Shown: in pieces, positions 8,994 through 44,900 of the stretch
Layout: each line of letters begins with the position of its first letter
How positions within the stretch are numbered: position 1 is the stretch's first letter
NCBI GenBank assembly: GCA_016933195.1
Contig: JAFGBN010000034.1
Span: 1-47,317 of the forward strand
From: Dehalococcoidia bacterium
GTDB taxonomy: Bacteria; Chloroflexota; Dehalococcoidia; GIF9; AB-539-J10
Length of the DNA stretch: 47,317 nucleotides
Direction: 5' to 3'
Program-made: the position numbers and the translations under genes
Notes under the pieces: model-generated
What the model saw: only the letters and a program-made list of their open reading frames with translations
Told to the model about the DNA's origin: nothing
The model's database searches: none

Positions 8994-10166
8994 TTATTTG
9001 AGCCCCAGAAGCGCCTCGATCCTGGGGTCACGTCTCCATACCGAGAAATTATGGAATCCCAGCTGCTCGCCCACAGTTACTTTACCCGATGCTACCGCTA
9101 CCACTTCATCGAATATTCTCTTCCCCACGCTCTCTATGGACTCTTTGCTTTCCATTATAGTGCTGGCATTTACATCTATGTCTTCGCTCATTCTGGCCCA
9201 GGTATCTGGGTTTCCTGTCACCTTTATCATGGGGCAGACGGCATGTCCGAAGACACCACCCCGCCCGGTGGCGAAAACGACGATATGTACACCAGCTGCT
9301 GCCATGGAGCTCATCGCCATGGGCTCCATATGAGTACCATCCTGTAAGTAGAATCCCCCTCCGGGCGGTACAGTTTCTAGGTAGTCCTCCTGGTTCTTTA
9401 GGACTCCCTTGATAGGCCTGTGGCCACCCTTATGCACAGCACCCAGCGATTTTTCTTCGAGGGTTGTAAGTCCTCCCTCGACATTCCCGCGGCACATAAA
9501 ATCCATTTCAGTACCCGGCACTGTCCACCGCTTCTCCTCGTTAGCGATCCACGTCAGGATTTGCTGCTTAACTCTCTCATTCACAGCACGAGCAGCCAGC
9601 GGCTCATCTGCACCTATGGCTTCTATGGGCTCAATCATTACTACTGCAGCACCTGCATCCACCAGCATATCTGACATTGCGCCTATAGCCGTGTTGGAAG
9701 CAAGGCCACTTGTGGTATCAGAGCCGCCACATTTCACACCAACAACCAGCCTGTTGATATCAAACGGCTTTCTTCGTTGTTTCCTAGCTTGGTCTACCAT
9801 GCCTTTTACTATCTCCTGCCCACGGGAAATGGCCTTGCGCGTGCCCCCAATCTTCTGAATGTTTACCACATCCACTGGTTTTCCCGCTTTACTGATTTCC
9901 TCCACCAGAGGTTCAGGCTGCATGCCTTCACAACCCATGGCTACTAGCAAGGTTCCAGCTACGTTGGGGTTCTTGGCTACCCCGACCATCGTGGGCGCTA
10001 TGTCCATGGCAATGCACCCGTGGTGTTGGGTCACTGGTGTTGCACCTTCTACGCCAGCGGCAATCATCCGCGCTGCCGGCTCGGAGCAATCTGCTACGGC
10101 CATTACCAGCACCGTGTTGCGTATGCCTACCAAATCATTGGGCCTTTCAAATCCCTGGAATTCCAT
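8994..10166 (-). CDS. UxaA-family lyase large subunit (altronate/galactarate dehydratase or sulfo-lyase type)
   Basis: About 390 residues from the ATG at 10166, chosen because the GGGAGG site is correctly spaced for it; an ATG two codons earlier is too close. The family signature 'VGVKCGGSDTTSGLASNTAIG' region lies near residue 150, 'QHHGC' near residue 46, and 'GLTTLEEKSLGAV' near residue 245. The enzyme would eliminate water (sugar acid) or sulfite (sulfolactate) from a 2-hydroxy acid with a small SAF subunit. That subunit is encoded immediately upstream at 10193. The split large/small arrangement is like SuyAB. Substrate cannot be decided from sequence. Confidence 0.85.
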   Translation of the reverse strand: MEFQGFERPNDLVGIRNTVLVMAVADCSEPAARMIAAGVEGATPVTQHHGCIAMDIAPTMVGVAKNPNVAGTLLVAMGCEGMQPEPLVEEISKAGKPVDVVNIQKIGGTRKAISRGQEIVKGMVDQARKQRRKPFDINRLVVGVKCGGSDTTSGLASNTAIGAMSDMLVDAGAAVVMIEPIEAIGADEPLAARAVNERVKQQILTWIANEEKRWTVPGTEMDFMCRGNVEGGLTTLEEKSLGAVHKGGHRPIKGVLKNQEDYLETVPPGGGFYLQDGTHMEPMAMSSMAAAGVHIVVFATGRGGVFGHAVCPMIKVTGNPDTWARMSEDIDVNASTIMESKESIESVGKRIFDEVVAVASGKVTVGEQLGFHNFSVWRRDPRIEALLGLK

Positions 10167-10192
10167 CAACATTCCTCCCTTACTGGTTATTT

Positions 10193-15360: not shown

Positions 15361-16512
15361 CTAAAACGTAGGGCCACTAACCCAGATATCAGCGAAATTG
15401 ACATAATCCAAGACTTCAGCCTTGGTTCTCTTCCCTGAAGCCACTGCCAGTGTCTCTTCAAATATAGCCTGGCCTGACTCCTTGTGGCTAGCCTCACCAA
15501 CAATATCTATGTACAAGTCCATATGTTCTAAAAGCCGCTGGTAAGTTTTTGGGTTTGCTGTCACTTTTATCACGGGAACGAAGGGAAAACCCTGGGGAGC
15601 ACCTATTCCAGTGGAGAATAGAATAATCTGTGCCCCAGCGGCAGCTAAAGCTGTGACAGCTTTGGGTTCCTGCCCTGGTCCATCCACGATAAACAAACCG
15701 CTTCCCTCAGGCCTTTCTCCATATTCACATACTCCCTTTATGGGCGTACTACCACCTTTGACTATGGCACCCAAGGATTTCTCCTCGATGCTGGTTAAGC
15801 CTGCAGCGATATTGCCCCGCGTTGGATTAGCACCCCTCATATCTACACCAGTACTCAGAGCTCTCTTCTCCATGCGGTCCACAATTTCTATTATCTTACG
15901 CCCTATCTCGGGTGATGCTGCTCTTCGTGCTAAGATATGCTCAGCACCCATCATCTCAGTCGTTTCTCCAAAGATACAACTGCCACCCTTTCCAACTAAT
16001 ATATCGCAAGCAGCGCCAATACTTGGGTTGGAAGCCAGGCCTGATGTTGTATCGGAGGCACCACACTTAACACCAATCATCAATTTAGAATCATCGACCT
16101 CTTCCTTGCGCACACGAGAGGCATCGGTAACCATCTGACGAGCCAACCGTGAGCCTTCAGCCATAGCAACACTAGCTCCTCCGATTTCCTGAATTACAAC
16201 CTTGGCTACGGGTTTCCCTGAAGCAGCGATGCCTTCTACTATATGGTCGACGGGTCCCTCGCAACCAACACTTACTAGCACCACACCAGCCAGGTTGGGA
16301 TTTCGGCCAAGGGAAATCAAAGTGCGATGCACTGTTTCCATATCGGGTTCGCTTTGGCCACAACCTTGATGGTGGAAGAAGGGAACGCATCCAGGCACTC
16401 CATTAGCAATCCGTTGAACCATATCACAAGCACACACTACTGTAGGGAAGATGCCCACGTAGTTTCTAGTGCCTACAGAACCATCTGGTCGAGGATAGCC
16501 CCAAAAACTCAC
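15361..16512 (-). CDS. UxaA-family lyase large subunit (second complete pair)
   Basis: A 383-residue homolog of altronate dehydratase C-terminal domain / SuyB. It carries 'YPRPDGSVGTRNYVGI' at the start, 'FHHQGCGQ' near residue 46, 'GVKCGASDTTSGLASNPSIG' near residue 147, and 'GLTSIEEKSLGAI' near residue 240. Its start overlaps the SAF-subunit stop by 4 bases (ATGA), so the two are translationally coupled and probably form one enzyme. The substrate is a 2-hydroxy acid of unknown identity; both sugar-acid dehydration and sulfolactate desulfonation fit the family. Confidence 0.86.
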   Translation of the reverse strand: MSFWGYPRPDGSVGTRNYVGIFPTVVCACDMVQRIANGVPGCVPFFHHQGCGQSEPDMETVHRTLISLGRNPNLAGVVLVSVGCEGPVDHIVEGIAASGKPVAKVVIQEIGGASVAMAEGSRLARQMVTDASRVRKEEVDDSKLMIGVKCGASDTTSGLASNPSIGAACDILVGKGGSCIFGETTEMMGAEHILARRAASPEIGRKIIEIVDRMEKRALSTGVDMRGANPTRGNIAAGLTSIEEKSLGAIVKGGSTPIKGVCEYGERPEGSGLFIVDGPGQEPKAVTALAAAGAQIILFSTGIGAPQGFPFVPVIKVTANPKTYQRLLEHMDLYIDIVGEASHKESGQAIFEETLAVASGKRTKAEVLDYVNFADIWVSGPTF

Positions 16513-19796: not shown

Positions 19797-20885
19797 CTAT
19801 TTCATCTCGTACCTGCTAATTGCTTCAGGGTCAAGCTCCAGCCCCAATCCGGGCTTGTCCGCAATCTCCAGGTAACCATCCTTAACCTGAGGCGGTTCCT
19901 GGTATATGACATCCCACCAGGGCATATACTCGACAATAAGACCATTTGGAATAGCGGCAATTAGATGTGCTGAGAAATCGTGGAATAGGTGGCTGGCTAC
20001 TGGTATGTTCCAAGCCTGGGCCATAGTTGCTATTTTCATCCACTCAGTTATTCCCCCAGCACGTTGCAAATCTACGATAAGAATGTCGGCCGACTTCTTC
20101 TCCAGGAGGGAGCGGAAGTCATATTTTGTACAGAAGGTCTCCCCATTAGAAACTGGCATATCTAGAGCCTTGGCTACTTGGGCTAACTCATCTGCATCAT
20201 CACTGGCTAGAGGGTCTTCTAACCAGTAGGCATGGTATCGCTCAATCTCTCGCCCTATCTGGATTGTTTGTGACACCGTCCATGCCCAATTAGCGTCTAT
20301 CATTATGCCAATGTTTTCACCAACGACTTCACGAACTGCCTTTAATCTTTCCAGCTCAACCTTAAATGGCTTATCTCCCATATTCATTTTCATGACATGG
20401 AAACCTTGCTTCACTAAAGACACAGCATCCCTTTGCAACTCATCCAGGCTCCAGTTACGAAAGAGCATATGGCTGGCGTAGGCTGGCACCTCACGCTGGT
20501 AGCCTCCAAGCAAATGGGCCAGGGGCAGTCCCAGGGCTTTGGCGCGCAGACACCAGAGAGCAGTATCAATGGCAGAAAGGGCATAGATACCATAGCCGTG
20601 ATGTCCCATGTGCCTGGTAGCGTTATAAAGTCTCTCCCAGGCTTCAGCCCAACGAAAAACATCCTGCCCGATTATTACCTCCTCCAGATCATCAATGCTC
20701 GCCTTTAGAGAATTTATCTGCCGGTCATTCCAGGCAAAGGCCAGGCCAAAAGCCTCAAGGCCATCGTCAGTGGTCAACTGTACTATGACCGGATTGATTT
20801 TCTCCCTGGGTTGTTGTCTTCCTCCAATGAAAGGTCGCGCCAATGGTACTGACAAGGCGCGGGTGTCCATCCTGGTTACCTTCAT
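19797..20885 (-). CDS. Mandelate racemase/muconate lactonizing enzyme family protein (enolase superfamily)
   Basis: A 362-residue enolase-superfamily enzyme with N-terminal capping domain and (beta/alpha)7-beta barrel. Metal ligands are visible as D197 ('IMIDANW'), E223 ('WLEDP') and E249 ('SNGET'). The D272/H299 dyad ('VDLQRAGG', 'ASHLF') matches mandelate racemase. The KxK motif of the family reads K166-M-N168, so the second catalytic lysine is Asn. It probably dehydrates or epimerises a sugar acid through H299; the substrate is unknown. A strong GGAGA site precedes the ATG. A weak TTGACA at 20962-20967 lies upstream. Confidence 0.88.
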   Translation of the reverse strand: MKVTRMDTRALSVPLARPFIGGRQQPREKINPVIVQLTTDDGLEAFGLAFAWNDRQINSLKASIDDLEEVIIGQDVFRWAEAWERLYNATRHMGHHGYGIYALSAIDTALWCLRAKALGLPLAHLLGGYQREVPAYASHMLFRNWSLDELQRDAVSLVKQGFHVMKMNMGDKPFKVELERLKAVREVVGENIGIMIDANWAWTVSQTIQIGREIERYHAYWLEDPLASDDADELAQVAKALDMPVSNGETFCTKYDFRSLLEKKSADILIVDLQRAGGITEWMKIATMAQAWNIPVASHLFHDFSAHLIAAIPNGLIVEYMPWWDVIYQEPPQVKDGYLEIADKPGLGLELDPEAISRYEMK

Positions 20886-22041: not shown

Positions 22042-23289
22042 TCAGCCTCCGCGGTGCTCCACAACGCCAGAGACACCCATTCCTCCACCTCCACAAATGG
22101 TTAAAATGCCATTCCTTGCATTGCGTCTTTTCATTTCGTAAAGCAGGGAGGTAAGAATCCTTGCTCCAGTAGCACCTAAGGGATGACCAATAGCAACACA
22201 GGAGCCATTAACGTTTATCCTATCATAATCCTTTTCGCTAAGCCCTAGCTCCCTGATATTTGCCAATACCTGGGCAGCAAAAGCCTCGTGGATTTCAATG
22301 AGGTCCATCTGGTCCCAGGTAAGCCCTGCTTTTTCAAGTGCTTTTCCAGCCGCCACTGTTGCTGATTCCCACACACGAGTAGGGTTAGCCCCGCTCATAG
22401 CAAAAGACCTGAGATAACCCATTGGCTCTACACCCAACTCCTTCGCCTTTTCCTCCGATGCTATCACACAGGCTGCTGCGCCATCGCTCTCACCAGATGA
22501 GTTACCCGCAGTGCAGACCCCACCTAAAACAGGTCTCAGTCTGGAAAGCGCTTCTAAACTGGTATCATGGCGAGGACGCTCGTCTTTATCAAAGGATATT
22601 GGCTCGCCTCTGCGTTGTGGAACAGAGACAGGAACAATCTCCTCCTTAAACTTTCCTGAGTCGATAGCTGCACAAGCTCTTTGGTTGCTCTGCAGCGCCC
22701 ATTTATCGATAGCTTCCCTTGGGATGTCATACTCCTTGGCTGCTGTTTCAGCCCATGTCATCATCGTTGGTAAGACGCCAAACCTCTCTTCAGGCTGAGA
22801 CATAACTCTAGCGCGCAGCACCCTATCATATAGTGGTATTCCCCATGTTGAGAGGGAGCCATGACCTCTGGGCATGTCGCCTTTTCCACCCAATCCCCAC
22901 TTCAGGTCTCCGGTAGTATAAAGCTCAGCGGTGCTCATGCTCTCCACACCACCAGCAACTACGATATCTGCGTTTCCACTCTGGACCAGTGTAGCCCCCA
23001 GGCAAATCGCATCAAAGCCGCTAGGGCATCGCCGATCAATTGTAAGGCCAGGAATTCCCACTGGCCAACCGGCCTTAAGCAAGGCCATGCGAGCAATATT
23101 CACATACTCGCCACTTTGATAATTCTGCCCCATAATTACCATATCAACTGAGGCTGGCTCTACTCTGGCTCTTTTTACAGCCTCATTAAGAACTAAAACA
23201 GCCAGATCGTACGCTGGCATATCTCGTAGAGCACCTCCATAATTGCCCACTGGCGTTCGCGTAGCACTAATTACAACAACTTCTTTCAT
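22042..23289 (-). CDS. Thiolase family protein (acetyl-CoA C-acyltransferase)
   Basis: About 415 residues from the ATG at 23289 (AAGGTGAG site upstream). The nucleophilic cysteine is in 'DRRCPSGFDAI' near residue 85. 'HEAFAAQ' near residue 345 replaces the bacterial biosynthetic 'NEAFA', as in degradative, trifunctional-enzyme-type thiolases. 'GHPLGATGAR' near residue 373 and 'CGGGGMG' near residue 402 supply the catalytic His and second Cys. It would cleave 3-oxoacyl-CoA or condense acyl-CoAs. It lies last in a cluster with two 3-hydroxyacyl-CoA dehydrogenase-type genes and an enoyl-CoA hydratase. Confidence 0.92.
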   Translation of the reverse strand: MKEVVVISATRTPVGNYGGALRDMPAYDLAVLVLNEAVKRARVEPASVDMVIMGQNYQSGEYVNIARMALLKAGWPVGIPGLTIDRRCPSGFDAICLGATLVQSGNADIVVAGGVESMSTAELYTTGDLKWGLGGKGDMPRGHGSLSTWGIPLYDRVLRARVMSQPEERFGVLPTMMTWAETAAKEYDIPREAIDKWALQSNQRACAAIDSGKFKEEIVPVSVPQRRGEPISFDKDERPRHDTSLEALSRLRPVLGGVCTAGNSSGESDGAAACVIASEEKAKELGVEPMGYLRSFAMSGANPTRVWESATVAAGKALEKAGLTWDQMDLIEIHEAFAAQVLANIRELGLSEKDYDRINVNGSCVAIGHPLGATGARILTSLLYEMKRRNARNGILTICGGGGMGVSGVVEHRGG

Positions 23290-23348
23290 TACACTCACCT
23301 TCTAAAAATTTCTGACCCGACTGTTCATCATCTTACTTAAAATTGAGG

Positions 23349-24203
23349 TCATTGGTATTCATAGAAACCTCTCTTAGTCTTTCTTCCATAATGCCCGGCT
23401 TGAACCTTTTTTATAAGGCATTGTGGAGGTCTGAACTTATCATCTCTAAGCTGCTCATAAATAGCAAGGGTGCCCTTAAGCCCAGTATCTAACCCTACAA
23501 GGTCTCTTAGCTCCAAAGGTCCCATGCGAAAACCACCGCCAACCTTGATAGCAGTGTCAATATCTTTTGCCGTGGCAATTCCTTCCTCAAGAAGCCTCAT
23601 CCCTTCGTTATACCAGGGCTGAAGGATTCTATTTACCACAAAGCCGGGTGAATCCCTGCACACCACAGGGGTCTTTCCTACCCTCTTAGAGAGGTCGACA
23701 ATAGCGCCTACCGTTTCTTCGGAAGTGCTTGGCGTTCTTACTACCTCTATCAATCTCATAATTTGGGGTGGGTTAAACCAATGCATACCGATAAAACGGT
23801 CAGGCCTTTTCGTAGACGCCGCTAACTCAGTTATGCTCAAATAGGAGGTGTTAGAAGCAAAAATCACATTAGCCGGGCATATTTCATCCAGCTCTCTGAA
23901 GAAGCGTTTCTTCTCTTCCAAATCCTCCACAATAGCTTCGATAATAAGGTCAACCCCTTCTACTGCCTCCGTTAAGTCCGTGACACCTTTGATTCCTGCT
24001 AAGGTCTCCTTCTTCTGTTCCTCAGTAAGCTTGCCCCTTTTGATTCCCTGGTCCATGAACTGTTCAACGTTTCTAATCCCCATTTGAACGAATTCTTCCT
24101 TTATGTCCCTCAAGGTTATGCTAATTCCGGCCTGGGCAGCTACCTGAGCGATACCGTGGCCCATAACTCCAGCACCCATCACGCCTATACTATTGACCTC
24201 CAT
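23349..24203 (-). CDS. hbd: 3-hydroxyacyl-CoA dehydrogenase
   Basis: About 284 residues from the ATG at 24203, chosen for its GGAGGTGAG site; an ATG seven codons earlier overlaps the enoyl-CoA hydratase stop. The NAD motif 'GVMGAGVMGHGIAQ' is at the N-terminus. The catalytic His and Glu are in 'HWFNPPQIMRLIE' (H141, E153 from this start). The C-terminal helical domain ends 'GRKTKRGFYEY', as in HbdA/FadB-type enzymes. It oxidises (S)-3-hydroxyacyl-CoA with NAD. It follows the enoyl-CoA hydratase gene directly. Confidence 0.93.
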   Translation of the reverse strand: MEVNSIGVMGAGVMGHGIAQVAAQAGISITLRDIKEEFVQMGIRNVEQFMDQGIKRGKLTEEQKKETLAGIKGVTDLTEAVEGVDLIIEAIVEDLEEKKRFFRELDEICPANVIFASNTSYLSITELAASTKRPDRFIGMHWFNPPQIMRLIEVVRTPSTSEETVGAIVDLSKRVGKTPVVCRDSPGFVVNRILQPWYNEGMRLLEEGIATAKDIDTAIKVGGGFRMGPLELRDLVGLDTGLKGTLAIYEQLRDDKFRPPQCLIKKVQAGHYGRKTKRGFYEYQ

Positions 24204-24220
24204 TTTCTCACCTCCTATCC

Positions 24221-25006
24221 TCATTTACCGGTGAATTTAGCCGGCCTCTTCTCTAAGAAAGCATTAAGCCCTTCAAGATGGTCTTCAGAGGAGAAAGCAA
24301 GACATTGGGCTCCTACTTCATAGCCAAGTCCAACGTCCAATGGTGCCTGCATTCCTTTATTTATCGCCTTCTTTGCCAGCTTAATAGTTATCGGGCTTTT
24401 GCTTGTTATCTTGTCTGCCAGTTCCTTGGTTGCTTCATCGAGCTTATCCAATGGTACTACTTTATTTACCAATCCGATCCTTTCCGCCTCTTTAGCATCT
24501 ATGAGGTCCCCGGTATAGATAAGCTCCTTTGCCTTACCAACTCCTACCAGACGAGGTAATCTCTGAGTTCCTCCTCCACCAGGAAGAATGCCAAGGTTCA
24601 ATTCTGGCTGACCTAACTTTGCATTTTCTGAGGCTATTCGTAAATCACAACACATGGCCAATTCTAGTCCAGCCCCCAGGCAGAAGCCATTGATTTTAGC
24701 AATCAAGGGGATGTCTAAGTTCTCAAAATCGGTGTACAGCTGCTGGCCTATGGTAGCCATGAATTCTTGCATTTGAAGAGGGCTTAACTCCTTAAGCTCA
24801 TTAATATCTGAACCCGAGATAAAAGCTTTTTCCCCTGCACCGGTGAGAATAAGCACCTTGATGTTTTTATCTAACCTCACATCCTCTAAAATCTGGATAA
24901 GTTCCTCTCTGCTTTCTTTGTTCAAGGCATTCCTTTTATCAGGCCTATTTATAGTGATAGTGGCTATGTTTTCTTCCTTTTCATAGATAGTGCACTTCAA
25001 TTCCAT
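24221..25006 (-). CDS. Enoyl-CoA hydratase/isomerase family protein (crotonase)
   Basis: A 261-residue crotonase. The oxyanion-hole segments are 'ISGSDINEL' near residue 64 and 'GAGLELAMCCDLRIA' near residue 111. Both catalytic glutamates are present: one in 'GLELAM', the other in 'QPELNLGILPGGGGTQRL' near residue 134. It would hydrate trans-2-enoyl-CoA to 3-hydroxyacyl-CoA. A GGAGGG site precedes the ATG, 9 bp after the dehydrogenase-like gene at 25016. Confidence 0.93.
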   Translation of the reverse strand: MELKCTIYEKEENIATITINRPDKRNALNKESREELIQILEDVRLDKNIKVLILTGAGEKAFISGSDINELKELSPLQMQEFMATIGQQLYTDFENLDIPLIAKINGFCLGAGLELAMCCDLRIASENAKLGQPELNLGILPGGGGTQRLPRLVGVGKAKELIYTGDLIDAKEAERIGLVNKVVPLDKLDEATKELADKITSKSPITIKLAKKAINKGMQAPLDVGLGYEVGAQCLAFSSEDHLEGLNAFLEKRPAKFTGK

Positions 25007-25015
25007 GACACCCTC

Positions 25016-25750
25016 CTATTCATACTGATAAAACCCTTTCTTTGTCTTCTTACCCAACATCTTAGCTGCAACCATTTTCTTAAGGAGCGGGCAAGGGCGA
25101 TACTGAGGCCCCAATTCTCTATAAAGCAGCTCCAAGGTATTGAGAACATTGTCTAAACCTAAATAGTCAGCATACTCTAAAGGGCCCTTAGGGAAATTTG
25201 CTCCTAGTTTTAACATTTTATCTATATCGTCACAGCTGGCGATGCCGTATGACAGCACAAAGGTAGCCTCATTAATCATTGATGCTAAAACTCGATTTAA
25301 AATAAGCCCCGGAGAGTCTTCGACGGTAACCGCCGTCTTACCAATATTTTCCGCAAAGCGTTTACAATCTTCATAGGTTGCATCTGAGGTCTCAATACCC
25401 CTGGTTATCTGAACTAACTTCGCTTCCGGGTCATAAGGCCAAAAATTAAAGCCGATAACTTTATCCGGCCTTTCCGTCGCCACTCCTATTTCAGTGATGC
25501 TCAAATAAGCGGTAGTTGAAGCTAACACAACATCTTCAGGCGAAATTCTATCAAGTTCTCGGAAAATTTCCTTCTTCTGAGCTAAGTTCTCGGGCAGAGC
25601 TTCAATAACCAGTTGAACATCTTTAAGCTCCTTGTCCAGGTTGCCGGTAACGTCTCTTACAATGCTTTCTATGCCGGCTCTGGAAACTACCTTGCTGAGC
25701 CCTTCACTAAAATCTCTCGTCCCTACTATGCAAATTTTATCAATTGTCAT
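25016..25750 (-). CDS. 3-hydroxyacyl-CoA dehydrogenase paralog lacking catalytic residues (probable pseudoenzyme)
   Basis: About 244 residues from the ATG at 25750 with an AAAGGAGGG site. It is homologous along its length to the dehydrogenase at 23349, including the 'DSPGL(I)LNRVL' segment and the C-terminal 'GKKTKKGFYQYE'. The Rossmann glycine motif GxGxxG is replaced by 'GTRDFSEG'. The catalytic His is Asn (N102) and the catalytic Glu is Gln (Q114) in 'FNFWPYDPEAKLVQ'. It should not catalyse the normal reaction. Its frame is intact, it has a strong ribosome-binding site, and it is the first gene of the cluster. A structural or regulatory partner of the real dehydrogenase, or a new activity, is likely. 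Confidence 0.85.
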   Translation of the reverse strand: MTIDKICIVGTRDFSEGLSKVVSRAGIESIVRDVTGNLDKELKDVQLVIEALPENLAQKKEIFRELDRISPEDVVLASTTAYLSITEIGVATERPDKVIGFNFWPYDPEAKLVQITRGIETSDATYEDCKRFAENIGKTAVTVEDSPGLILNRVLASMINEATFVLSYGIASCDDIDKMLKLGANFPKGPLEYADYLGLDNVLNTLELLYRELGPQYRPCPLLKKMVAAKMLGKKTKKGFYQYE

Positions 25751-25768
25751 CAAGCCCTCCTTTAGCAA

Positions 25769-31661: not shown

Positions 31662-34391
31662 TTAACTACCCCCTGTTATGGCTTCAGCTGCTCTGCCTGC
31701 TGCCCCTGAGGCTTGAGTTACAGAATCAGGGATATCCCGTGGACTGTGAACGTAGCCACAAGCAAATATGCCAGGCTGTGTGGTATCCAGCGGCTGCGAC
31801 AATCTATCTGGTGTCTTTACAAAGCCACTTTCGTCTAACTCTATACCTAATATCTCTGCTAAGTCCTCGGTGATTTGAGGGATCATCGCTTGGGCAAGAA
31901 CCACCAGCTCTGCTTCAAAGCTCTTTATTTCCCCGGTAGTAGTATCCTCATACCAGATGATGGGGTTCTCATCCTCGGGGTTAACTTCGATCCTGCCAGG
32001 GCGACCCCTGATATAAGCCACATTGTATTCCTTTTTAGCTCTGGCAATATACTCCTGGAACCTTTTGCCCACAGCCCTCATATCCATATAGAAGATGGTT
32101 GATTTAGTTCCCGGTTCATGCTCATATGCCATCATCGCCTCTTTGGTAGAATGCATACAGCACACACTGGAACAATAAGGTTTATACCTGAAATCGCGGG
32201 AGCCAACACATTGAATGAAGGCTATATTATGCGGAATTTTGCCATCTGACGGTCGGTGAAGCGCTCCAGAAGTCGGCCCGGATGCCGCGGTTAATCTCTC
32301 ATACTCCATTGCGGTGACGACGTTCTTTATCTTCTCATAGCCATACTCGCTTATGACTGAAACATCGAAGAAGTCGAGCCCCGTGGCTACGATTATTGCT
32401 CCTACATCAATTTTGATATGTTCGTCCTGCATCCCATGAGCAACCGCGCCTGCCTCGCACCGTCTCTCACATTCATAACACTCAATACATCCCTCTATCT
32501 GTCCTGCCAGGCAGCGCGAAGCTTCTTCCAAACCCTCTTCTAGAGAATACCCAAGAGCTGCCTCACCGAAACCTTTAATCCTCTTATCAACACGCTCCTC
32601 TCTCATGTCTACTCGCTTCCTAGAAGGGAAACGCTTTCTCAGCTTCTTGATCTCCTCTTCAGAGAGTTGCTCTGGCTCTTTCTTCTCCTCGTCCATCTCA
32701 AGAGGCTCTCCATTCAAATATCGATTGATAGAGAGAGCTGCTTTTTTACCTGCAGCAATAGCATCTATCACGAAAGCAGGGCCAGTAACAACATCGCCTC
32801 CAGCAAATACTCCTTTGGCGTTAGTGGCCCCGGTCTTGGGGTCAATCTCTACCATCCCCTTCTTGGAAACCGAGACCCCGAGCTCCTTAACAAAATCTGT
32901 TTCCGGTGTCTGCCCAAGAGCAGCGATCACCGTATCCACAGGGATAACGAACTCAGAACCCTCAACAGGAATCGGCCTAGGCCTACCGCTAGCATCAGCC
33001 TTCCCGAGTTCCATCCTCACACACTCCATCTCGGCGAGCTTCTCGTTATGGGACAAGAAGCGACTTGGGGTAGTCAGGAACTCGATCTTTATCCCCTCAT
33101 TCTCTGCTGCTGTGACTTCCTCTACTGATGCTGGCATCTCAGCACGAGAACGGCGATAGATAATGTCTACTTCCGTTGCTCCAAGGCGCTTTGCTGTCCG
33201 AGCACAATCGATAGCCGTGTTCCCTCCACCTATAACCGCCACATTCTTCCCCAAATTGGTTTTCTCTCCAAGATTTACAGATCTCAGGAACTTCACCCCC
33301 TCTAACACTCCAGGGAGATCCTCTCCCTCGACACCAAGCCTCATCCCACCATGCGCCCCAACACCGATGAAGAGCGCATCGTGGTCCTTCCTTATGTTTT
33401 CTAAGGTGATGTCTTTGCCCACGTGAACACCTGTTTTTATATCAACGCTGAGTTTCTGAATATAAGCCACTTCCTTCCTGAGTATATCCTTGGGAAGTCG
33501 ATACTCGGGGATGCCAACACGAAGCATACCCCCTGCTTCAGGAAGGCTTTCAAAGACGGTGACATTGTGTCCCTTTAGGGCAAGATCGTTGGCAGCACTC
33601 AAGCCCGCAGGGCCCGCGCCTATAATCGCTACCTTCTTGCCTGTTCTTGTTATGGTCGGTACCTCAAGCTCTTCAATATTCACTTGATCGGCAGCAAACC
33701 TCTTAAGGTCACGGATGGCCATGGCCTCATCAACTTGGCCACGGTTACAGACATGCTCACATGGGGCATAGCAAACGCGACCAACAGAGCCAGGAAAAGG
33801 GTTTGTATCCCGGATCAGCTTATAAGCCTCCTTAAATTCTCCTTCTGTGATAAGCTTGATGTACCCGGGCACGTTGGCATGGACAGGGCAGGCATCCATA
33901 CAAGCTACTTTGCAGGGACGCTCCTCTCTTTTGTCAATGGCACACTTCTTAGGGACAGCTTGAGGAAAGAGCATGAAGATGGCTTTCCTTTTTCCCAGAC
34001 CTTGGTTGAACTCATCTGGCATGATTACAGGGCAACCCTCCACGCAAAGACCACAGCCGGTGCATTTAGCCCAATCAACAAGAGGCGATTTTTTCTTTAT
34101 TTTGACTTTGAAATTCCCTACCTCTCCTGAGACCTCCTCGACCTCAGAATAGGTCAAAAGCTCTATATTAGGATGCTGGCTTGCATCTATCATTTTGGGA
34201 GCGAGAATACACATAGCACAATCATTGGTAGGGAAGGTTTTGTCCAGTTGTGCCATCCTCCCTCCGATGCTGGGCAATCTTTCCACCAAATATACCTTAA
34301 GACCCATATTAGCTAAGTCGAGGGAGGCTTGAATCCCAGCTATGCCAGCGCCAATTACTAAGACTGATTTACGTCCGTTTTCTTCACTCAT
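31662..34391 (-). CDS. hdrA: HdrA-GltD fusion protein (909 aa), lacking HdrA N- and C-terminal domains
   Basis: HdrA FAD domain ('VIGAGIAGIQAS' residues 12-23) and a [4Fe-4S] motif ('CTGCGLCVEGCP', residues 110-121). Then comes a complete GltD/NfnB-like module at about 155-560, with its own cluster segment 'CMDACP', 'GRVCYAPCEHVCNRG' (204-218), FAD motif 'IIGAGPAGLSAA' (256-267) and NAD(P)H motif 'VIGGGNTAID' (386-395). After that HdrA resumes with 'CIECYECERRC' (635-645) and 'CVGSR...YCSSVCC' (728-745). The HdrA N-terminal ~140 residues and C-terminal ferredoxin are absent, but the next gene supplies both. ATGA overlap with the HdrCB gene. It probably passes electrons between NAD(P)H and the Hdr complex. 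Confidence 0.92.
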   Translation of the reverse strand: MSEENGRKSVLVIGAGIAGIQASLDLANMGLKVYLVERLPSIGGRMAQLDKTFPTNDCAMCILAPKMIDASQHPNIELLTYSEVEEVSGEVGNFKVKIKKKSPLVDWAKCTGCGLCVEGCPVIMPDEFNQGLGKRKAIFMLFPQAVPKKCAIDKREERPCKVACMDACPVHANVPGYIKLITEGEFKEAYKLIRDTNPFPGSVGRVCYAPCEHVCNRGQVDEAMAIRDLKRFAADQVNIEELEVPTITRTGKKVAIIGAGPAGLSAANDLALKGHNVTVFESLPEAGGMLRVGIPEYRLPKDILRKEVAYIQKLSVDIKTGVHVGKDITLENIRKDHDALFIGVGAHGGMRLGVEGEDLPGVLEGVKFLRSVNLGEKTNLGKNVAVIGGGNTAIDCARTAKRLGATEVDIIYRRSRAEMPASVEEVTAAENEGIKIEFLTTPSRFLSHNEKLAEMECVRMELGKADASGRPRPIPVEGSEFVIPVDTVIAALGQTPETDFVKELGVSVSKKGMVEIDPKTGATNAKGVFAGGDVVTGPAFVIDAIAAGKKAALSINRYLNGEPLEMDEEKKEPEQLSEEEIKKLRKRFPSRKRVDMREERVDKRIKGFGEAALGYSLEEGLEEASRCLAGQIEGCIECYECERRCEAGAVAHGMQDEHIKIDVGAIIVATGLDFFDVSVISEYGYEKIKNVVTAMEYERLTAASGPTSGALHRPSDGKIPHNIAFIQCVGSRDFRYKPYCSSVCCMHSTKEAMMAYEHEPGTKSTIFYMDMRAVGKRFQEYIARAKKEYNVAYIRGRPGRIEVNPEDENPIIWYEDTTTGEIKSFEAELVVLAQAMIPQITEDLAEILGIELDESGFVKTPDRLSQPLDTTQPGIFACGYVHSPRDIPDSVTQASGAAGRAAEAITGGS

Positions 34392-35542
34392 TCTTGGCCT
34401 CCCATGGCATTTGCCACCAAATTCGCCAAATCCATAACTTCAATCTGCGGAGTTGGTCGCTTCTCCTCTCCTTTGTCTACCATGGCACATTTGAAATGGG
34501 TCTGACATTTAGGGCAACAGGTTATAAGCGTCTCTGCTCCAGTCAAGGTTGCCTCGGATAGCCTTTCCGTTCTTATCATATTGGAGTAAGAGTCGCAATT
34601 GGTAAAGGCGCTGGTGCCACAACAAATGGAATCCCTTCTGTTATGGGGCATCTCAACAAACTCTATGCCAGGAATAGACTCAAGCACCTTTCGAGGCGCA
34701 TCATAAACCTCCAAATGTCTTCCTAACCTACATGGGTCTTGATAGGTCACCTTCTTTCTTACTTCATTAAGTTTCAACCCTCCTTTTTCTATCCTCTCGG
34801 CTAGAAATTCAGAGATATGTTGTAACTCACAATCCACTTCAAAGCCATGATTCGGGTAGTCCAGCTTGAATGTCCGATAGCCTTCAGGGCAGGAGAAGAT
34901 TATTTTCTTTACCCCAGCCTCTTTTATTAATCTGGTATTGTGCTCAGCTAGTTTATTAAATGTCTCTATATCCCCAGTCCAAAGCACATCATGCCCACAG
35001 CATTTCTCATTCGAAAGCAATTTAGGCTCTATCCCCAGAAGGTTCAAGATTCTCAAGCTTGCCTCAGTAATATCAAGAGCTCTAAATTCAACATCCTCGA
35101 AGATGGGCTCAAAATATGGAGCACATCCAATCCATAGAAGAATATCGCTTTTATCCGAAATGCGATATTTTTCAGATAGCCACTCCAATCTCCTTTGCTT
35201 AATGTCAGGACTTGCCATGAGTCGTGCCAGAGATTGCAATTGTCCCGAGTGGGCATAAACTCCATGCTGCCCATTATTCTGGGCTATGGCTCTGGCTTTC
35301 TGGGTAAACACAGGAAAATCAACGCCAGAGGGGCATAATTGCTGGCAAGTATAGCAAGTCAAACAGGAGAAAAGTTTCTGGTTAAAGACCAACTCATCCT
35401 CAAATCCTAAAAGAGCGTCTTCAATTATTGCCCGGGGAGAGTAAGATGGATCGTGTCTGGCCACAGGACATACGCTGGTGCACTTGCCGCACTCTAAACA
35501 ATTATAAGTCTTGGTTTCTTGAATAATATCGTCTAAATTCAC
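34388..35542 (-). CDS. HdrC-HdrB fusion (heterodisulfide reductase-like, CCG domains)
   Basis: A 384-residue protein starting at GTG (35540-35542) that overlaps the MvhD stop (GTGA). The N-terminus is HdrC-like with two [4Fe-4S] motifs ('CLECGKCTSVCP' residues 15-26 and 'CLTCYTCQQLCP' near residue 60). The C-terminal part is HdrB-like with two CCG units. The second is complete (a Cys, then 'ICCGTSAF', then 'CCPKC'). The first has 'KCCGHD' but ends 'SCPEG', lacking the final Cys. HdrB binds the unusual [4Fe-4S] clusters that reduce heterodisulfide in methanogens; the bacterial substrate is unknown. Confidence 0.9.
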   Translation of the reverse strand: MNLDDIIQETKTYNCLECGKCTSVCPVARHDPSYSPRAIIEDALLGFEDELVFNQKLFSCLTCYTCQQLCPSGVDFPVFTQKARAIAQNNGQHGVYAHSGQLQSLARLMASPDIKQRRLEWLSEKYRISDKSDILLWIGCAPYFEPIFEDVEFRALDITEASLRILNLLGIEPKLLSNEKCCGHDVLWTGDIETFNKLAEHNTRLIKEAGVKKIIFSCPEGYRTFKLDYPNHGFEVDCELQHISEFLAERIEKGGLKLNEVRKKVTYQDPCRLGRHLEVYDAPRKVLESIPGIEFVEMPHNRRDSICCGTSAFTNCDSYSNMIRTERLSEATLTGAETLITCCPKCQTHFKCAMVDKGEEKRPTPQIEVMDLANLVANAMGGQE

Positions 35543-35967
35543 GCTAAGTCCTCCATTTTAACTTTGAAAGGTGAGGGGCCTAGTTTCTTAAGCTGTTCAA
35601 CAAATTCCTGAACTACTCTGGCAAATACCGTTCCCTCGGAAGTAGATATCATCTCACGCTTTAGCCTTTCGTCCTCCAAACCAAGCGTGTGAACCAGCCT
35701 CTTCAGCTTGGCAAACATGGCATCGCACTTTACTGGGCCATCTATGTAATGGCAGTCTGTATAGTGGCACCCAGAGACTATAATCCCATCAGCTCCCTCT
35801 TCAAAAGCTCTGAGGACATAATCAGGATTTATCATCCCACTGCACATCATTCTGACAATATAGACATTGGGAGGATATTGAACCCGGCTCGTCCCGGCTA
35901 AATCGGCTGCGGCATAAGTACACCAGTTGCAGGCAAAAGCGACGATCTTGGGCTCAAAATCAGCCAT
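35539..35967 (-). CDS. mvhD: MvhD/FlpD-type hydrogenase iron-sulfur subunit
   Basis: About 142 residues from the ATG at 35967 (TTGGAGG site). The family's cysteines appear as 'CNWCTYAAADLAG' near residue 12, 'RMMCSGM' near residue 40, and 'SGCHYTDCHY' near residue 66. These hold a [2Fe-2S] centre that, in methanogens, passes electrons from hydrogenase or formate dehydrogenase to HdrA. No hydrogenase genes are present, so the formate dehydrogenase at 41960 is a candidate donor; this is inference. It overlaps the 3' end of the upstream hdrA by 8 bp. Confidence 0.93.
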   Translation of the reverse strand: MADFEPKIVAFACNWCTYAAADLAGTSRVQYPPNVYIVRMMCSGMINPDYVLRAFEEGADGIIVSGCHYTDCHYIDGPVKCDAMFAKLKRLVHTLGLEDERLKREMISTSEGTVFARVVQEFVEQLKKLGPSPFKVKMEDLA

Positions 35968-38900
35968 GGTGTACCTCCAATAAGCCATCAACCAAACTCC
36001 CTATTTCCTGCATACTGAAATGTCTGATTGACATTGCTCCTGTAGGGCAAACAACAGCACATGCCCCGCATCCTTTGCACAGGGCTTCATTTATGCTGGA
36101 AACCACAGTCCCATTTTTGCTAATTATTGCGGGAGCGTGGAAAGTACAAATCTCCTCGCAGCGTCCACATCCATGACAAAAGCTCTCATCCACATGAGCT
36201 ATGGCTGCTTCAGTCGTGACCTTGCCTTTGCTTATCAATGACAAGGCCTTGGATGCTGCCGCAGAAGCCTGGGCCACAGTATCAGGGATGTCCTTGGGTC
36301 CAGCACAGCAGCCAGCAATGAAAACCCCGTCTGTGGGCGTATTTACCGGAGCAAGCTTGGGATGGGTTTCCAGGAAGAAGTTATCGGCTCTTTGACCTAT
36401 GGTAAAACAGCTAGCGACCTCGCCTGCATCAGACCGGGCTTGCAGAGCAGAACAGAGGATAACCATGTCTACCGGGACACGGACTACCTTCCCCAATAAG
36501 GTATCTTCAGCTATAACAGCTAATTTTTCTTTTTCTTCCTCGCTTATGGCTTGATCAGTTATTTTTGATACCTTGCCTCGGATGAAATTGACCCCCATTT
36601 CTGAAACATGCTTGTAGAATTCCTCATAACCCTCTCCAAAACACCTCATATCGATATAGAATTCGTATACCTCGGCTTTGGTAAACTCCTTTATCAGTTC
36701 TGCATATTTGAGTCCATACATGCAGCAGACTCTGGAGCAGTACTCATGATAGTTCTTGTCTCGGCTGCCGACACAATGTACTATGGCTACACTTTCTGGT
36801 TCTCTTCCGTCTTTTAGTTGAATTCGCCCTTGAGTTGGCCCGCCAGCGCAAGTTATCCTCTCAAATTCAAGTCCAGTTAGAACATTGTCGTACTTCTTGT
36901 ATCCATACTGACTTATGATACTGGGATCAAACTGATCGTAACCAGTAGCCAGAATGATTGAGCCTACCTCTAGCTCAACAAATTCATCCTTCATGTCATG
37001 GTTAATCGCCTCTTGCTCACAGGCCTTCACGCACTCCAAGCATTCCGAGCATACGCCACAGTTTAGACAGCGCTTGGCCTCCTCGATAGCTGTTTCTTCA
37101 TCGAAGCCTTGTTCCACCTCAGCAAAGGAGCCTTTCCTCTGATCAAGCTTAAGCAGCGGCATGCTGGCTCTTGGGCTTGGCTTGGCTCCTTCTTTCGATA
37201 CTTTTTCTACCCTTGTAGGCGCTATTTGTCTTCCTTCGGTTAGGCTAATACCTTTTAGATAGCGATCGATAGAAATAGCTGCCTCTTTGCCTGCGGCAAT
37301 GGCTGCAATTACGTCAGCGGGTCCGGAAACGGCATCGCCACCGGCAAAGACGCCATGGATATTTGTTTGCAAGCTAGTAGGGTTGACTTCAAGTGTTCCC
37401 CAATCAGTATAGTCCAGTTCTCTTGGCAGCATTGATTTATCCACAGCCTGACCAATAGCGATGATGAGATTGTCAACATTCATGGTGAATTCGGAGCCCT
37501 TGACAGGTATGGGACGGCGACGGCCGCTAGCGTCAGGTTCGCCTAACTCCATCCTGGTACATTCTATGGCCGACAATTGATCATCTTTAGACAAAACTCT
37601 AACCGGCGCCGCCAGGAAATGGATTTTAATTCCTTCTCGCTCTGCTTCCTCAACCTCGGTTGCGATGGCGGGCATTTCAGCTCTAGAGCGACGATAAACG
37701 ATAGTTACCTCTTTAGCCCCGAGGCGCAAAGCAGCTCTAGCGGCATCAATAGCGGCATTGCCGCCACCGATAACTACCACTCGATCCCCTAAGCTAATCT
37801 GCACGCCAGAATTTACCATTCTCAGGAAGTCGAGGGCATGAATTACTCCGCTTGTTTCTTCATTGGGCATCCCTGTCTTTTGGCTTGCCTGGGCACCGCT
37901 GCCGAGGAAAATTGCTGTGTATCCTTGGGTGAAGACCTCGCTGAGGTCTTTCACCGGCGTATTTGTCTTGATCTCCACCCCCAATTCCTGTATGTAGCTT
38001 ATATCGTTATCCACTATCTTCTTGGGCAATCTATATTCAGGGATGCCATACCTCAGCAGGCCACCTGCACAAGAGAGAGACTCGAACACGGTAACCGCAT
38101 AACCCTCCCTGATTAGATCGTAAGCGCAGGCAAGCCCCGCAGGACCAGAGCCGATAATAGCTACCTTTTCTTCCTTTGTCCTTTCAACTTGGGTTGCCTT
38201 TTGTCTCCCAACCTTTAGCTCGTAATCAACAATGAAGCGTTTTAAGCTTCGAATGGCAACAGGTTCGTCAAACCTCCCCCGTTCGCAGTCCAGTTCACAA
38301 GGATGGGTACAGACCCGCCCAAGAACCCCAGCAAAAGGCACGCTTCTTCTAACTACCTCCAGAGCCTCTTTAAACTTGCCTTGGGAAGTAAGAGCAATGT
38401 AGCCTTGAGCATTGACACCGGCAGGACAGGCAATTCGGCATGGCGAAGTGCCTCTCTTGTCAATGGCAAAAGCAGCAGGGACAGCTTGAGGGAGGGGAAG
38501 ATAAGCTGCCTTCCTCATATGTAGCCCCATCTCAAACTCGTCGGGTACCTCGACAGGACATGCTTTGGCGCATTCCCCACAAGAGTTACATTTATCAACA
38601 TCGACATACCTAGGCTTCTTCCTCACCTTGACTTCAAAATTGCCGATATAGCCTGAAACCTCTTCTACTTCACTAGAAGTCATTAACTCGATGTTAGGGT
38701 GATGACCAACGTCGGTCATCTTTGGTGTAAGGATGCATTCCGAACAGTCCAAAGTGGGGAAGGTTCTATCAAGTTGAATCATATGTCCGCCAATGGATGG
38801 GTCGCGTTCTACCATATAGACTTTCTTTCCTCCATCAGCGATATCTAGAGCAGCCTGGATGCCGGCAATACCCCCGCCTACAACCAGGACATCGGAATTG

Positions 38901-39328
38901 ACTGAAACCTCCTTAATCTCCAGGGGCTCCTGCCAGTAAACACGCCTTATAGCAGCGCGTACAAGGTCCTTGGCCTTCTCAGTAGCTCGTTCCTTATCTG
39001 TAGCATGGGGCCAGGAACAATGCTCCCTGATATTGGCGTGCTCATATAGATAAGGATTTAACCCTGCATCCTGACAAGCTTTGCGGAACGTAAGCTCATG
39101 CATCCTTGGTGAGCAGGAAGCAACCACAACTCGATTAAGTCCCAGTTCTTTAATATCACTTTTGATGAGATCCTGCCCTGGGTCAGAGCACATATACCTA
39201 TAGTCACGAGAAATCACCACATGAGGTAAAGTCCCAGCGTATTTGGCTACCTGTTCTACATCAACTGTGCCAGCGATATTTAGCCCGCAGTGGCAAATAT
39301 ATATTCCGAGTCTTCTTTCATCTTCCAT
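35960..39328 (-). CDS. hdrA: HdrA-GltD fusion protein (1122 aa), full length
   Basis: First gene of the operon. HdrA N-terminal domain (1-140; 'ICHCGLNIAG', 'VASCSPRMHE'). FAD motif 'VVGGGIAGIQAA' (149-160). [4Fe-4S] motif 'CNSCGECAKACP' (247-258). GltD module at about 296-690, with 'GRVCTHPCELDCERG' (337-351), FAD motif 'IIGSGPAGLACA' (391-402) and NAD(P)H motif 'VIGGGNAAID' (519-528). A GltD-type linker 'EEAKRCLNCG' follows (749-758). HdrA resumes with 'CSECLECVKAC' (760-770), 'CVGSR...YCSRVCC' (852-869), and ends in a double [4Fe-4S] ferredoxin (1051-1095). A CAGGAG site precedes the ATG. Likely the bifurcating flavin subunit with a built-in NAD(P)H entry site. Confidence 0.93.
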   Translation of the reverse strand: MEDERRLGIYICHCGLNIAGTVDVEQVAKYAGTLPHVVISRDYRYMCSDPGQDLIKSDIKELGLNRVVVASCSPRMHELTFRKACQDAGLNPYLYEHANIREHCSWPHATDKERATEKAKDLVRAAIRRVYWQEPLEIKEVSVNSDVLVVGGGIAGIQAALDIADGGKKVYMVERDPSIGGHMIQLDRTFPTLDCSECILTPKMTDVGHHPNIELMTSSEVEEVSGYIGNFEVKVRKKPRYVDVDKCNSCGECAKACPVEVPDEFEMGLHMRKAAYLPLPQAVPAAFAIDKRGTSPCRIACPAGVNAQGYIALTSQGKFKEALEVVRRSVPFAGVLGRVCTHPCELDCERGRFDEPVAIRSLKRFIVDYELKVGRQKATQVERTKEEKVAIIGSGPAGLACAYDLIREGYAVTVFESLSCAGGLLRYGIPEYRLPKKIVDNDISYIQELGVEIKTNTPVKDLSEVFTQGYTAIFLGSGAQASQKTGMPNEETSGVIHALDFLRMVNSGVQISLGDRVVVIGGGNAAIDAARAALRLGAKEVTIVYRRSRAEMPAIATEVEEAEREGIKIHFLAAPVRVLSKDDQLSAIECTRMELGEPDASGRRRPIPVKGSEFTMNVDNLIIAIGQAVDKSMLPRELDYTDWGTLEVNPTSLQTNIHGVFAGGDAVSGPADVIAAIAAGKEAAISIDRYLKGISLTEGRQIAPTRVEKVSKEGAKPSPRASMPLLKLDQRKGSFAEVEQGFDEETAIEEAKRCLNCGVCSECLECVKACEQEAINHDMKDEFVELEVGSIILATGYDQFDPSIISQYGYKKYDNVLTGLEFERITCAGGPTQGRIQLKDGREPESVAIVHCVGSRDKNYHEYCSRVCCMYGLKYAELIKEFTKAEVYEFYIDMRCFGEGYEEFYKHVSEMGVNFIRGKVSKITDQAISEEEKEKLAVIAEDTLLGKVVRVPVDMVILCSALQARSDAGEVASCFTIGQRADNFFLETHPKLAPVNTPTDGVFIAGCCAGPKDIPDTVAQASAAASKALSLISKGKVTTEAAIAHVDESFCHGCGRCEEICTFHAPAIISKNGTVVSSINEALCKGCGACAVVCPTGAMSIRHFSMQEIGSLVDGLLEVHHG

Positions 39329-41959: not shown

Positions 41960-44900
41960 TCATAGTTTCTCCACTCTAACTGCTGAGACTTTAAACTCAG
42001 GAATTTTGGATACGGGGTCTAGCTTGGGATTAGTGAGAACGTTGGCAGGGCTTTCAGCGAAATGGAAGGTCATAAACACAACTCCAGGGGGTAATGCCTC
42101 AGTTACTTTCGCTTTAGCGATGACTTCACCACGCCGTGAACTGACTTTGACCTTATCGCCGTGAGCTATGCCGAGGTGCAAGGCATCCTTGGGGCTAATT
42201 TCCACGGTACCTTCAGGCTCTATGATATTAAGCCCAGTCACCTTACGGGTCATTGTGCCAGTATGAAAGTGATACAAACTGCGCCCTGTTGTGAAGATTA
42301 AAGGATACTCTTCGTCTGGCAGCTCCCCCGGGGGGATATATTTTAGCGGGATAAATCTGCCTTTTCCCCTAGTAAAAATATTTGTGTGTAGTATTGGTGT
42401 ACCCGGGTGGTCATCGGTAGGACAAGGCCATTGAAGTCCACCGTTTTCCAACCTCTGGTAACTTATGCCACCGTAGCTGGGAGTGACATAGCGAATTTCC
42501 TCCATTATGTCAAAGGGGTGGCTATAATCAAAGCCTTTGGCTCCTAAGCTTTTGGCTACTTGGCAAATAATCCACCAATCAGGACGGGAATCGCCAATCG
42601 GCTCGATAGCCTTTGTTACTCGCTGTACTCGCCGCTCGGTGTTGGTGAAGGTGCCATCCTTTTCAGCAAAGCTCGCCGCTGGCAGGACAACATGGGCAAA
42701 CTTTGCTGTTTCGGAAAGGAAAATATCCTGAACCACAAGAAAGTCAAGTCGAGCTAGCGCCTCTCGGACATGTTGGGCATCCGGGTCGCTTAAGGCCGGG
42801 TTCTCACCCACGAGGTATAGTGCCTTTATCTCTTTCTGGTAGGCGGCTTCAAGCATTCCAACCAAGGTTAGCCCTGGGGATGAAGGCAAGGAGCACCCCC
42901 AGGCAGTTTCGAATTTCTCTCTAATAGCTGGAGCAGTTACTGCCTGATAGCCTGGATAGACGTTAGGGAGGGCACCCATATCACAGGCACCTTGCACATT
43001 GTTCTGCCCCCTGAGTGGATTGACCCCAGTTGAGGGCTTACCTATATTTCCAGTGAGCATTGCCAGGTTGGCAGTAGCCATTACATTGTCAGTGCCGTGG
43101 GAATGCTGCGTAATACCCATAGCATAGAGGATTGTAGCGGGATGGTTGGTGGCAAAGATACGAGCAGCTTCTGCTATCTTGCTCTGGGGAACTTTGGTTA
43201 CTTGCTCAACAAAATCAAGATCAAAGTCTTTTAACGACTCCCTGAAAGCATCGAAATTCTCACATCTATCTTTGGTAAAGGCTGAGTCAAATAGTCCCTC
43301 ATCCACTATAACCCGCATCATTCCCATCAACAAGGCTACGTCTGTGCCAGGGTTATGTTGCAGCCAGAGGCTAGCAAAGTGGCAGAGGTCGATCTCGCGG
43401 GGGTTAGCTACGATGAGCTTTGCCCCATTATCCACTGCTCTTTTCACCTCAAGCCCGATCACAGGGTGGGTCTCGGTAGTGTTAGTGCCAATAGCTAAAA
43501 TGCAAGCGGCGTCGCCAATTTCGCTGATGGAATTAGTCATAGCTCCACTCCCGAAGCTCTGCACCAGGCCGGCTACAGTAGGGGCATGGCATAGTCGGGC
43601 GCAATGATCAACGTTGTTAGTACCCAGCACCGCTCGAGCAAATTTTTGCATGACATAGTTCTCTTCATTAGTGCACTTGGCTGAGGTGATCATCCCCAAT
43701 TCAGCCGATGTATAGCTTCTCAATTTCCTGGCCACTAGCTCTAGTGTCTCATCCCACGACGCCTCTTTCAGCTCCCCATCCCTTCTTATCAGGGGGACAG
43801 TTAAACGTTCGGGGTGATGGACAAATTCGGCAATGCCGAAACGACCTTTGACACATGCTTGCCCCTGGTTAACCACGCCATCAGGATCAGGAATGGAAGC
43901 GATTATCCTTTCATTTTTGACCTCAAGGTTCAACTGACAGCCAACACCACAATAGGGGCAAATCGTGGCAACTACACGGTCAGGCTTTGCAATCCCACGG
44001 GTAGCTACATCAGTGATGGCACCGGTTGGGCAGGAATCAAGGCAGGCACCGCAAAAATTGCAGCCACCCTCTTGAAGACTTCGCCCTTCTAAAGGGGCAA
44101 TGACATGACACTGGAGGCAGCGCTGAGCTTCAGCAACTGCTGTTTCCCAACTCATTCCCTGCTCTACCTCGGAAAGCCCTTCAATACGCGTATGCGGTGG
44201 AAGGTAGGAAATGCTGGCTAGTCTTTCGCCTGTAGGTACGTCTTCTAACCAAGTCATAGCCTCCTCAGCAGGAACAAGATGCTCTGTGATATCTCCTCTG
44301 CCGCCGAGATAACAATCAATAGACTGAGCTGCCTTTCTTCCCGCTGCGATAGCGTTGACGACCAAAGCTGGCCCGCTGACACAGTCGCCTCCGGCAAAGA
44401 CACCCTCCCGACTTGTGCTTAGATCTTCGTTAGCTTTCAATACATTTCCCCGTCCCACTTCAAGCTGAAAGTCTCCCGGAACTTCCGGGCGTTCGCCAAT
44501 GGCAGCAATCAACGTATCAAGCTCGGTGACAAACTCACTTCCCTTGACAGGAACAGGACGACGTCTGCCACTGGCATCAGGCTCCCCTAACTCCATGCTG
44601 ACTAACTCCAACTTTAAGATAGATCTTTCCTCGAAAATCTTTGAAGGAGCGACGAGAAAGATGATTTCAACTCCTTCTTCTAACGCTTGTTGCACTTCTT
44701 CTGGCTGAGCCGGCATTTCGTTCTGCGTTCTGCGGTAAAAAATAATTACTCTTCTGGCACCAAGCCGTAAAGCAGCACGCGCGGAGTCTATAGCAACATT
44801 CCCGCCTCCAATTACCCCCACCCTGTTTCCCAGTTCTAACTTTTCTCTCAAGTTGAATCGGCGGAGGAATTCCACACAGCCGATTACCCCAGGCAAATCT

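Follow-up and report, generated by a model that had tools for sequence, protein, structure and literature searches.

A pseudoenzyme homologue of 3-hydroxyacyl-CoA dehydrogenase in Chloroflexota, probably the non-catalytic partner of an active family member

The DNA analysed here, 47,317 nucleotides of a Dehalococcoidia contig (JAFGBN010000034.1, henceforth the window), carries on its minus strand a gene for a homologue of 3-hydroxyacyl-CoA dehydrogenase (HCDH), referred to below as pseudo-HCDH, which is followed by genes for an enoyl-CoA hydratase, a catalytically intact HCDH (the partner) and a thiolase (Table 1). An ATG at 25750 opens an uninterrupted frame of 244 codons with an AGGAGG ribosome-binding site directly upstream, and the stop codon lies inside the Shine-Dalgarno sequence of the hydratase gene; hydratase and partner overlap by 4 bp if the longest frames are taken, the ATG at 24203 being the likelier start of the partner. 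The intact frame and the strong ribosome-binding site that a previous sequence-only reading had claimed are both in place, and the pseudo gene precedes the same-strand partner in 11 of 11 readable loci.

Both HCDH domains are recognised in the window protein above their Pfam gathering cut-offs, 3HCDH (PF00725, 2.2e-26) over its full length and 3HCDH_N (PF02737, 5.8e-26) only from profile position 59 to 179 of 180, so that the NAD domain is partial. The nearest NCBIfam model is that of 3-hydroxybutyryl-CoA dehydrogenase, which is matched well under its cut-off (258 vs 408 bits). In a BLASTP comparison with the partner the two proteins are 35% identical over 284 columns (E=3e-56), pseudo-HCDH being about 38 residues short in the NAD domain.

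Table 1. Position of the pseudo-HCDH gene, its altered sites and its neighbours in the window
Feature	Position	Strand	Basis
AGGAGGG ribosome-binding site of pseudo-HCDH	25755..25761	(-)	sequence
Pseudo-HCDH gene, 244 aa	25016..25750	(-)	frame, Pfam, BLASTP, alignment
GTRDFS in place of GxGxxG (dinucleotide motif), residues 10-15	25706..25723	(-)	alignment
Site of absent ~38-residue helical hairpin (putative CoA clamp roof), residues ~34-38	25637..25651	(-)	BLASTP, alignment
Residues 79-81 (TTA), with Thr79 for NAD-contact Asn and Ala81 for catalytic Ser	25508..25516	(-)	alignment
Asn102 replacing catalytic His	25445..25447	(-)	alignment
Gln114 replacing catalytic Glu	25409..25411	(-)	alignment
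C-terminal dimerisation domain (PF00725), residues 148-243, best conserved part	25022..25309	(-)	Pfam, identity by domain
Enoyl-CoA hydratase (second module gene), with Glu of GLE and QPE motifs; missing from the module in 3/11 loci	24221..25006	(-)	Pfam, locus comparison
Partner, an HCDH with intact catalytic residues; probable start codon ATG at 24203	23349..24224	(-)	alignment, profile
Thiolase of the acetyl-CoA acyltransferase type, following gene of the operon	22042..23298	(-)	Pfam, NCBIfam

In the HCDH of F. prausnitzii the catalytic triad consists of Ser117, His136 and Glu148, NAD is contacted by Asn115 and Ser117, and the helices of a clamp roof close over the CoA and hold it (PMC11476959). 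A site-by-site alignment was made against 71 canonical HCDHs, in every one of which this Ser, Asn, His and Glu are intact. The window protein has Ala, Asn and Gln in place of the catalytic Ser, His and Glu. The exchange of His for Asn and of Glu for Gln and the degeneration of GxGxxG to GTRDFS had already been called from the sequence, and the alignment reproduces all three (at Asn102, Gln114 and residues 10-15); the losses go beyond that earlier account and include the catalytic Ser, the NAD-contact Asn and a hairpin of about 38 residues. The accompanying claim that the rest of the fold is preserved therefore holds only in part: the C-terminal domain is complete, but at the site of this hairpin all 11 pseudo members have 7-8 residues vs 46 in canonical HCDHs. 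The missing segment probably corresponds to the CoA clamp roof. Across the 11 members the NAD-contact Asn is lost throughout, the equivalent of Asn208 is Asp in nine and the GxGxxG motif is degenerate in most; Ser is clearly substituted in nine, the alignment being ambiguous in the remaining two (G008 and G020). Judging from the catalytic, NAD and CoA features that have gone, pseudo-HCDH is presumably inactive as a dehydrogenase. The idea, also voiced in the sequence-only reading, that it may bind acyl-CoA for another purpose has the loss of the CoA clamp in all 11 members against it.

These members form a well-delimited family. Eleven intact pseudo-HCDHs were found in Chloroflexota, the window protein included, and a twelfth (G417) is broken by a scaffold gap. 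Two belong to the same family as the window genome (G008 and G020) and are full-length proteins, 46-48% identical and likewise devoid of the hairpin; profile searches recovered G260, G221, G361, G331, G416, G425, G426 and the gap-interrupted G417 from the order, and G086 from another part of the class. The intact orthologues come from two of the order's families and from a further, distant family within the class. A profile built from ten members separates them cleanly, giving 352-446 bits for members and at most 257 bits for all other homologues. Beyond the phylum the distribution was sampled through the best 80 loci of one capped contig scan; the only members among these were two Chloroflexi loci (L058 and L107), which encode the same proteins as G416 and G425 and assign the window to Chloroflexota. 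No solved structure belonging to the clade turned up in structure searches.

Pseudo-HCDH is neither dying nor recent and has been retained by selection. Pairwise dN/dS ratios (NG86) are 0.08-0.15 for close pairs with estimable dS, with bootstrap upper limits of at most 0.24, and the best pair, G221-G416, has a dS of 0.66 and a dN/dS of 0.127 (bootstrap 0.081-0.184); the partner HCDH of the same genomes gives 0.06-0.10 for most pairs. The values come from pairs of relatives, as dS is saturated on the branch of the window itself, where the argument for selection consequently rests on the intact frame and the conserved position. A selected pseudoenzyme rather than a decaying gene had been proposed from the window sequence, and the intact orthologues, the ratios far from 1 and the shared operon position all agree with that proposal. 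The diagnostic changes recur as well, Gln in 11 of 11 and Asn in nine of 11 orthologues; none combines the catalytic His with the catalytic Glu, His being kept without Glu in two members (G086 and G426).

The partner encoded at 23349 is a distinct clade in its own right. Its Ser, His, Glu and GxGxxG are intact in 12 of 12 orthologues, which score 515 bits or more against their own profile, while no other HCDH exceeds 372. Across 393 class genomes, pseudo and partner clades occur in the same eight genomes and neither occurs alone, which corresponds to an exact p of ~8e-17 on the assumption of independent genomes. Related genomes violate this assumption, and it is the absence of exceptions over such distances, not the p-value, that makes the co-occurrence strong. 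The complete sample of the order (84 genomes) contains ten genomes with both genes and three exceptions. In G421 the partner begins at the contig end; in G417 a run of N in the assembly lies at the end of the pseudo gene and interrupts the locus, and its apparent status as a pseudo gene without partner was rejected on that ground. In G427 a single deletion extends from the pseudo gene through the hydratase into the start of the partner. The partner remnant left in this genome (L231:5827-6453) contains stop codons, and its flanking genes are still collinear with those of G426, a member of the same genus.

The module hydratase separates pseudo gene and partner in eight of the 11 readable loci, while nothing lies between them in G221, G331 and G416; where the hydratase is missing the pair stays, and the genetic link is therefore to the dehydrogenase. 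In the tree both clades have 99-100% SH-aLRT support and branch alike, G008 grouping with G020, the members of the second family grouping together, and the window and G086 falling outside these groups; the two distance matrices correlate with r=0.92. Pseudo and partner clades are not sister groups, and an origin as a recent tandem duplicate of the 23349 enzyme was rejected, since the two form separate, well-supported clades. The pairing and the matching branching order argue that the pair is old and has been inherited as a unit. Strict co-occurrence and co-phylogeny favour a pairing of pseudo-HCDH with the active enzyme as the interpretation, and both would also follow from linked vertical inheritance.

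The distribution of constraint along the protein is uneven. In pseudo-HCDH the mean identity is 0.663 in the C-terminal domain vs 0.437 in the NAD domain (calculated without the hairpin columns), and the former exceeds the latter in 55 of 55 pairs; the partner has 0.720 vs 0.709, i.e. no difference. For the first Rossmann segment the values are 0.34 in pseudo-HCDH and 0.76 in the partner. Canonical HCDHs dimerise through the C-terminal domain (PMC11476959, PMC10988713), and the dimer-forming domain is therefore the part of pseudo-HCDH that has been kept most strongly. Clade-specific substitutions are concentrated at the published interface positions in the partner (p=0.002) and in pseudo-HCDH (p=0.016), but an unrelated control clade is enriched still more strongly (6e-5), so that the enrichment is no proof of interface coevolution. 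The partner interface has a Gln in 12 of 12 and a Trp in 11 of 12 orthologues where canonical enzymes are mostly aliphatic; pseudo-HCDH has Ala at the Gln position. An AlphaFold2 monomer of pseudo-HCDH, predicted from a ten-member alignment, reached a pLDDT of 87 and a pTM of 0.60, and Foldseek matched it to 3-hydroxybutyryl-CoA dehydrogenases (E 4.9e-26) with a whole-chain TM of ~0.56 and an rmsd of ~15 A; in the model the domains are recognisable, while their mutual arrangement is unreliable.

The genes around the pair differ between genomes. Relatives carry an SCP-x/DUF35-type thiolase in place of the thiolase type of the window, and their clusters also hold an HMG-CoA-synthase-like/OB-fold fusion, a MaoC hydratase and a methylmalonyl-CoA mutase, neighbours that hint at an unusual acyl-CoA as candidate substrate. 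The fusion protein (L033:2959-4386 and orthologues) joins an HMG-CoA-synthase/KASIII-like part to a DUF35/OB-fold zinc domain and adjoins the SCP-x-type thiolase in these same clusters; it is not found beside the module of the window. In G086 an additional, intact-looking HCDH gene (L137:4079-4927(-)) lies directly upstream of pseudo-HCDH and brings the cluster to three HCDH-family genes.

Other parts of the window deserve mention in their own right. Three paralogues of the UxaA/GarD (altronate/galactarate dehydratase) type, ~390 aa each, are encoded on the minus strand (6740-7936, 8994-10172 and 15361-16512), the first called by Pfam and the other two from sequence. SDR and NAD-epimerase genes, as well as an enolase-superfamily dehydratase (19797-20885), are interspersed with them, and the whole appears to be a sugar-acid degradation island. 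Two long HdrA-like flavoproteins of 909 and 1122 aa (31662-34391 and 35960-39328, minus strand), each with an inserted Fer4_20/Pyr_redox_2 module of the glutamate-synthase small-subunit type, adjoin an FlpD/MvhD gene (35539-35991) and may be part of an NAD(P)H-linked electron-bifurcating complex. A minus-strand gene at 41960-46009 encodes a 1349-aa chain that combines 2Fe-2S, Fer4_20/Pyr_redox_2 and molybdopterin oxidoreductase (formate-dehydrogenase type) domains.

The loss of catalytic and NAD/CoA features, the purifying selection and the strict genetic pairing are established. A protein that has lost its working parts and always sits beside one active member of its own family is probably the non-catalytic half of a two-part enzyme. 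We consider it most likely, with a probability of about two in three, that pseudo-HCDH is an ancient, selected, non-catalytic subunit joined to the 23349 HCDH as an obligate heteromer. Pseudo-HCDH would associate with the active HCDH via its conserved C-terminal dimerisation domain and take the place of the second protomer of the usual homodimer; the pair would constitute an obligate heteromeric L-3-hydroxyacyl-CoA dehydrogenase in which NAD binding and substrate oxidation are carried out by one subunit type only, and the inactive chain would stabilise or shape the active half. We infer the lack of dehydrogenase activity, the physical heteromer and an effect on activity or substrate range.

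The altered cleft invites other explanations. Several of its residues are conserved in their changed form (partner numbering: Gln in 11 of 11 members, Thr118 and Asp191 in nine of 11 each, as well as Lys149). This points to a cleft that is still of importance and would suit a stand-alone binding or regulatory protein whose cleft accommodates a nucleotide, acyl-CoA or acid and which regulates or scaffolds beta-oxidation enzymes without replacing a partner protomer. However, the protein has lost its NAD motif as well as its CoA clamp, sequence change is faster in the NAD domain than in the C-terminal one, and pseudo-HCDH is never found without the HCDH partner in complete loci, which makes this reading unlikely. 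A neofunctionalised enzyme that reuses the cleft, for example as a hydratase or isomerase without NAD, could likewise draw on the conserved replacements (Asn, Gln, Thr and Asp) and on the single origin of the clade; yet two members have His where the rest have Asn, leaving no single fixed new catalytic residue, no invariant general acid or base stands at the old site, and the substrate clamp is missing, so that we regard such an enzyme as improbable.

Association with a different neighbour is hardly more probable. Pseudo-HCDH might scaffold a trifunctional-like complex by binding the enoyl-CoA hydratase or the thiolase instead of the HCDH, and the likely translational coupling of pseudo-HCDH and hydratase in the window, together with the position of the hydratase between both genes in most loci, speaks for the former; but the three genomes that have no module hydratase keep the pseudo-HCDH pair nonetheless, and the type of thiolase varies between genomes. 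A decaying pseudogene or MAG artefact, to which the lost catalytic residues might point, is scarcely credible, given that the gene occurs in 12 genomes, its frame being complete in 11 and interrupted by a scaffold gap in the other, and given its low dN/dS and conserved position; decay was rejected on the strength of the orthologues and dN/dS.

HCDH is a textbook homodimer. If the heteromeric reading is true, the dehydrogenases of beta-oxidation have seen a subunit inactivated in no fewer than three folds (SDR, ACAD and HCDH), and as both proteins are small and probably soluble, the contribution of the pseudoenzyme protomer is directly testable. Annotators should also take note: since pseudo-HCDH matches 3-hydroxybutyryl-CoA dehydrogenase better than any other family, reconstructions of uncultured Chloroflexota could wrongly count it among the active steps.

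In comparison with canonical HCDHs (PF02737 and PF00725; Hbd of C. acetobutylicum, 6aa8, and human HADH, 1f0y), pseudo-HCDH has the same fold and domain order and a complete C-terminal dimerisation domain, but it measures 244 rather than ~285 aa, lacks the catalytic triad and the CoA clamp hairpin, and has a degenerate NAD motif. Its identity to solved short-chain enzymes is ~29-41% in the fold search, with E values down to 3e-62 by sequence. The exchanges of Glu for Gln and Ser for Ala are those of the solved human laboratory mutants E170Q (1il0) and S137A (1lso), going by the entry titles. In the open-access literature, to which the search was confined (subscription papers being outside its scope), no published description of an HCDH pseudoenzyme or heteromer was found.

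The nearest functional parallels come from other folds. BbsCD, the (alpha-hydroxybenzyl)succinyl-CoA dehydrogenase of anaerobic toluene degradation, carries out the same 3-hydroxyacyl-CoA dehydrogenation step and, according to PMC10818641 (reference 26), consists of one active and one inactive subunit; BbsCD is an SDR, however, whereas the window pair belongs to the unrelated HCDH family, pseudo-HCDH having HCDH domains only and no SDR fold. The clusters of the relatives resemble BbsAB in that they likewise carry thiolase and OB-fold/zinc-domain genes. In the alpha2beta2 acyl-CoA dehydrogenases of the ChsE1/ChsE2 type from steroid degradation, only one subunit per alpha-beta pair has the catalytic glutamate (PMC8399759); unlike the HCDH pair, these enzymes belong to the ACAD family, bind FAD at the interface of the dimer and require the heterotetramer for activity. 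Domain E of peroxisomal MFE1 duplicates the HCDH dimerisation domain without being catalytic and takes the place of a second chain in the dimer (PMC10988713), but it is fused within one chain and has no NAD domain of its own, whereas pseudo-HCDH is a separate gene with a degenerate NAD domain. By analogy, pseudo-HCDH is most likely comparable to the inactive subunit of BbsCD or ChsE1/E2. A bolder extension, to which we give somewhat less than even odds, is that the pair represents an undescribed class of heteromeric HCDH that arose convergently with BbsCD and ChsE1/E2 and adds a third dehydrogenase fold to them, in which the separately encoded dead protomer would provide a dimerisation domain and, being without a clamp, open the complex for bulky or branched acyl-CoA. 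Dehydrogenases with a pseudoenzyme subunit were known already; what is new is the family of orthologues, the partner dedicated to it, the loss of the clamp and the difference in constraint between the domains.
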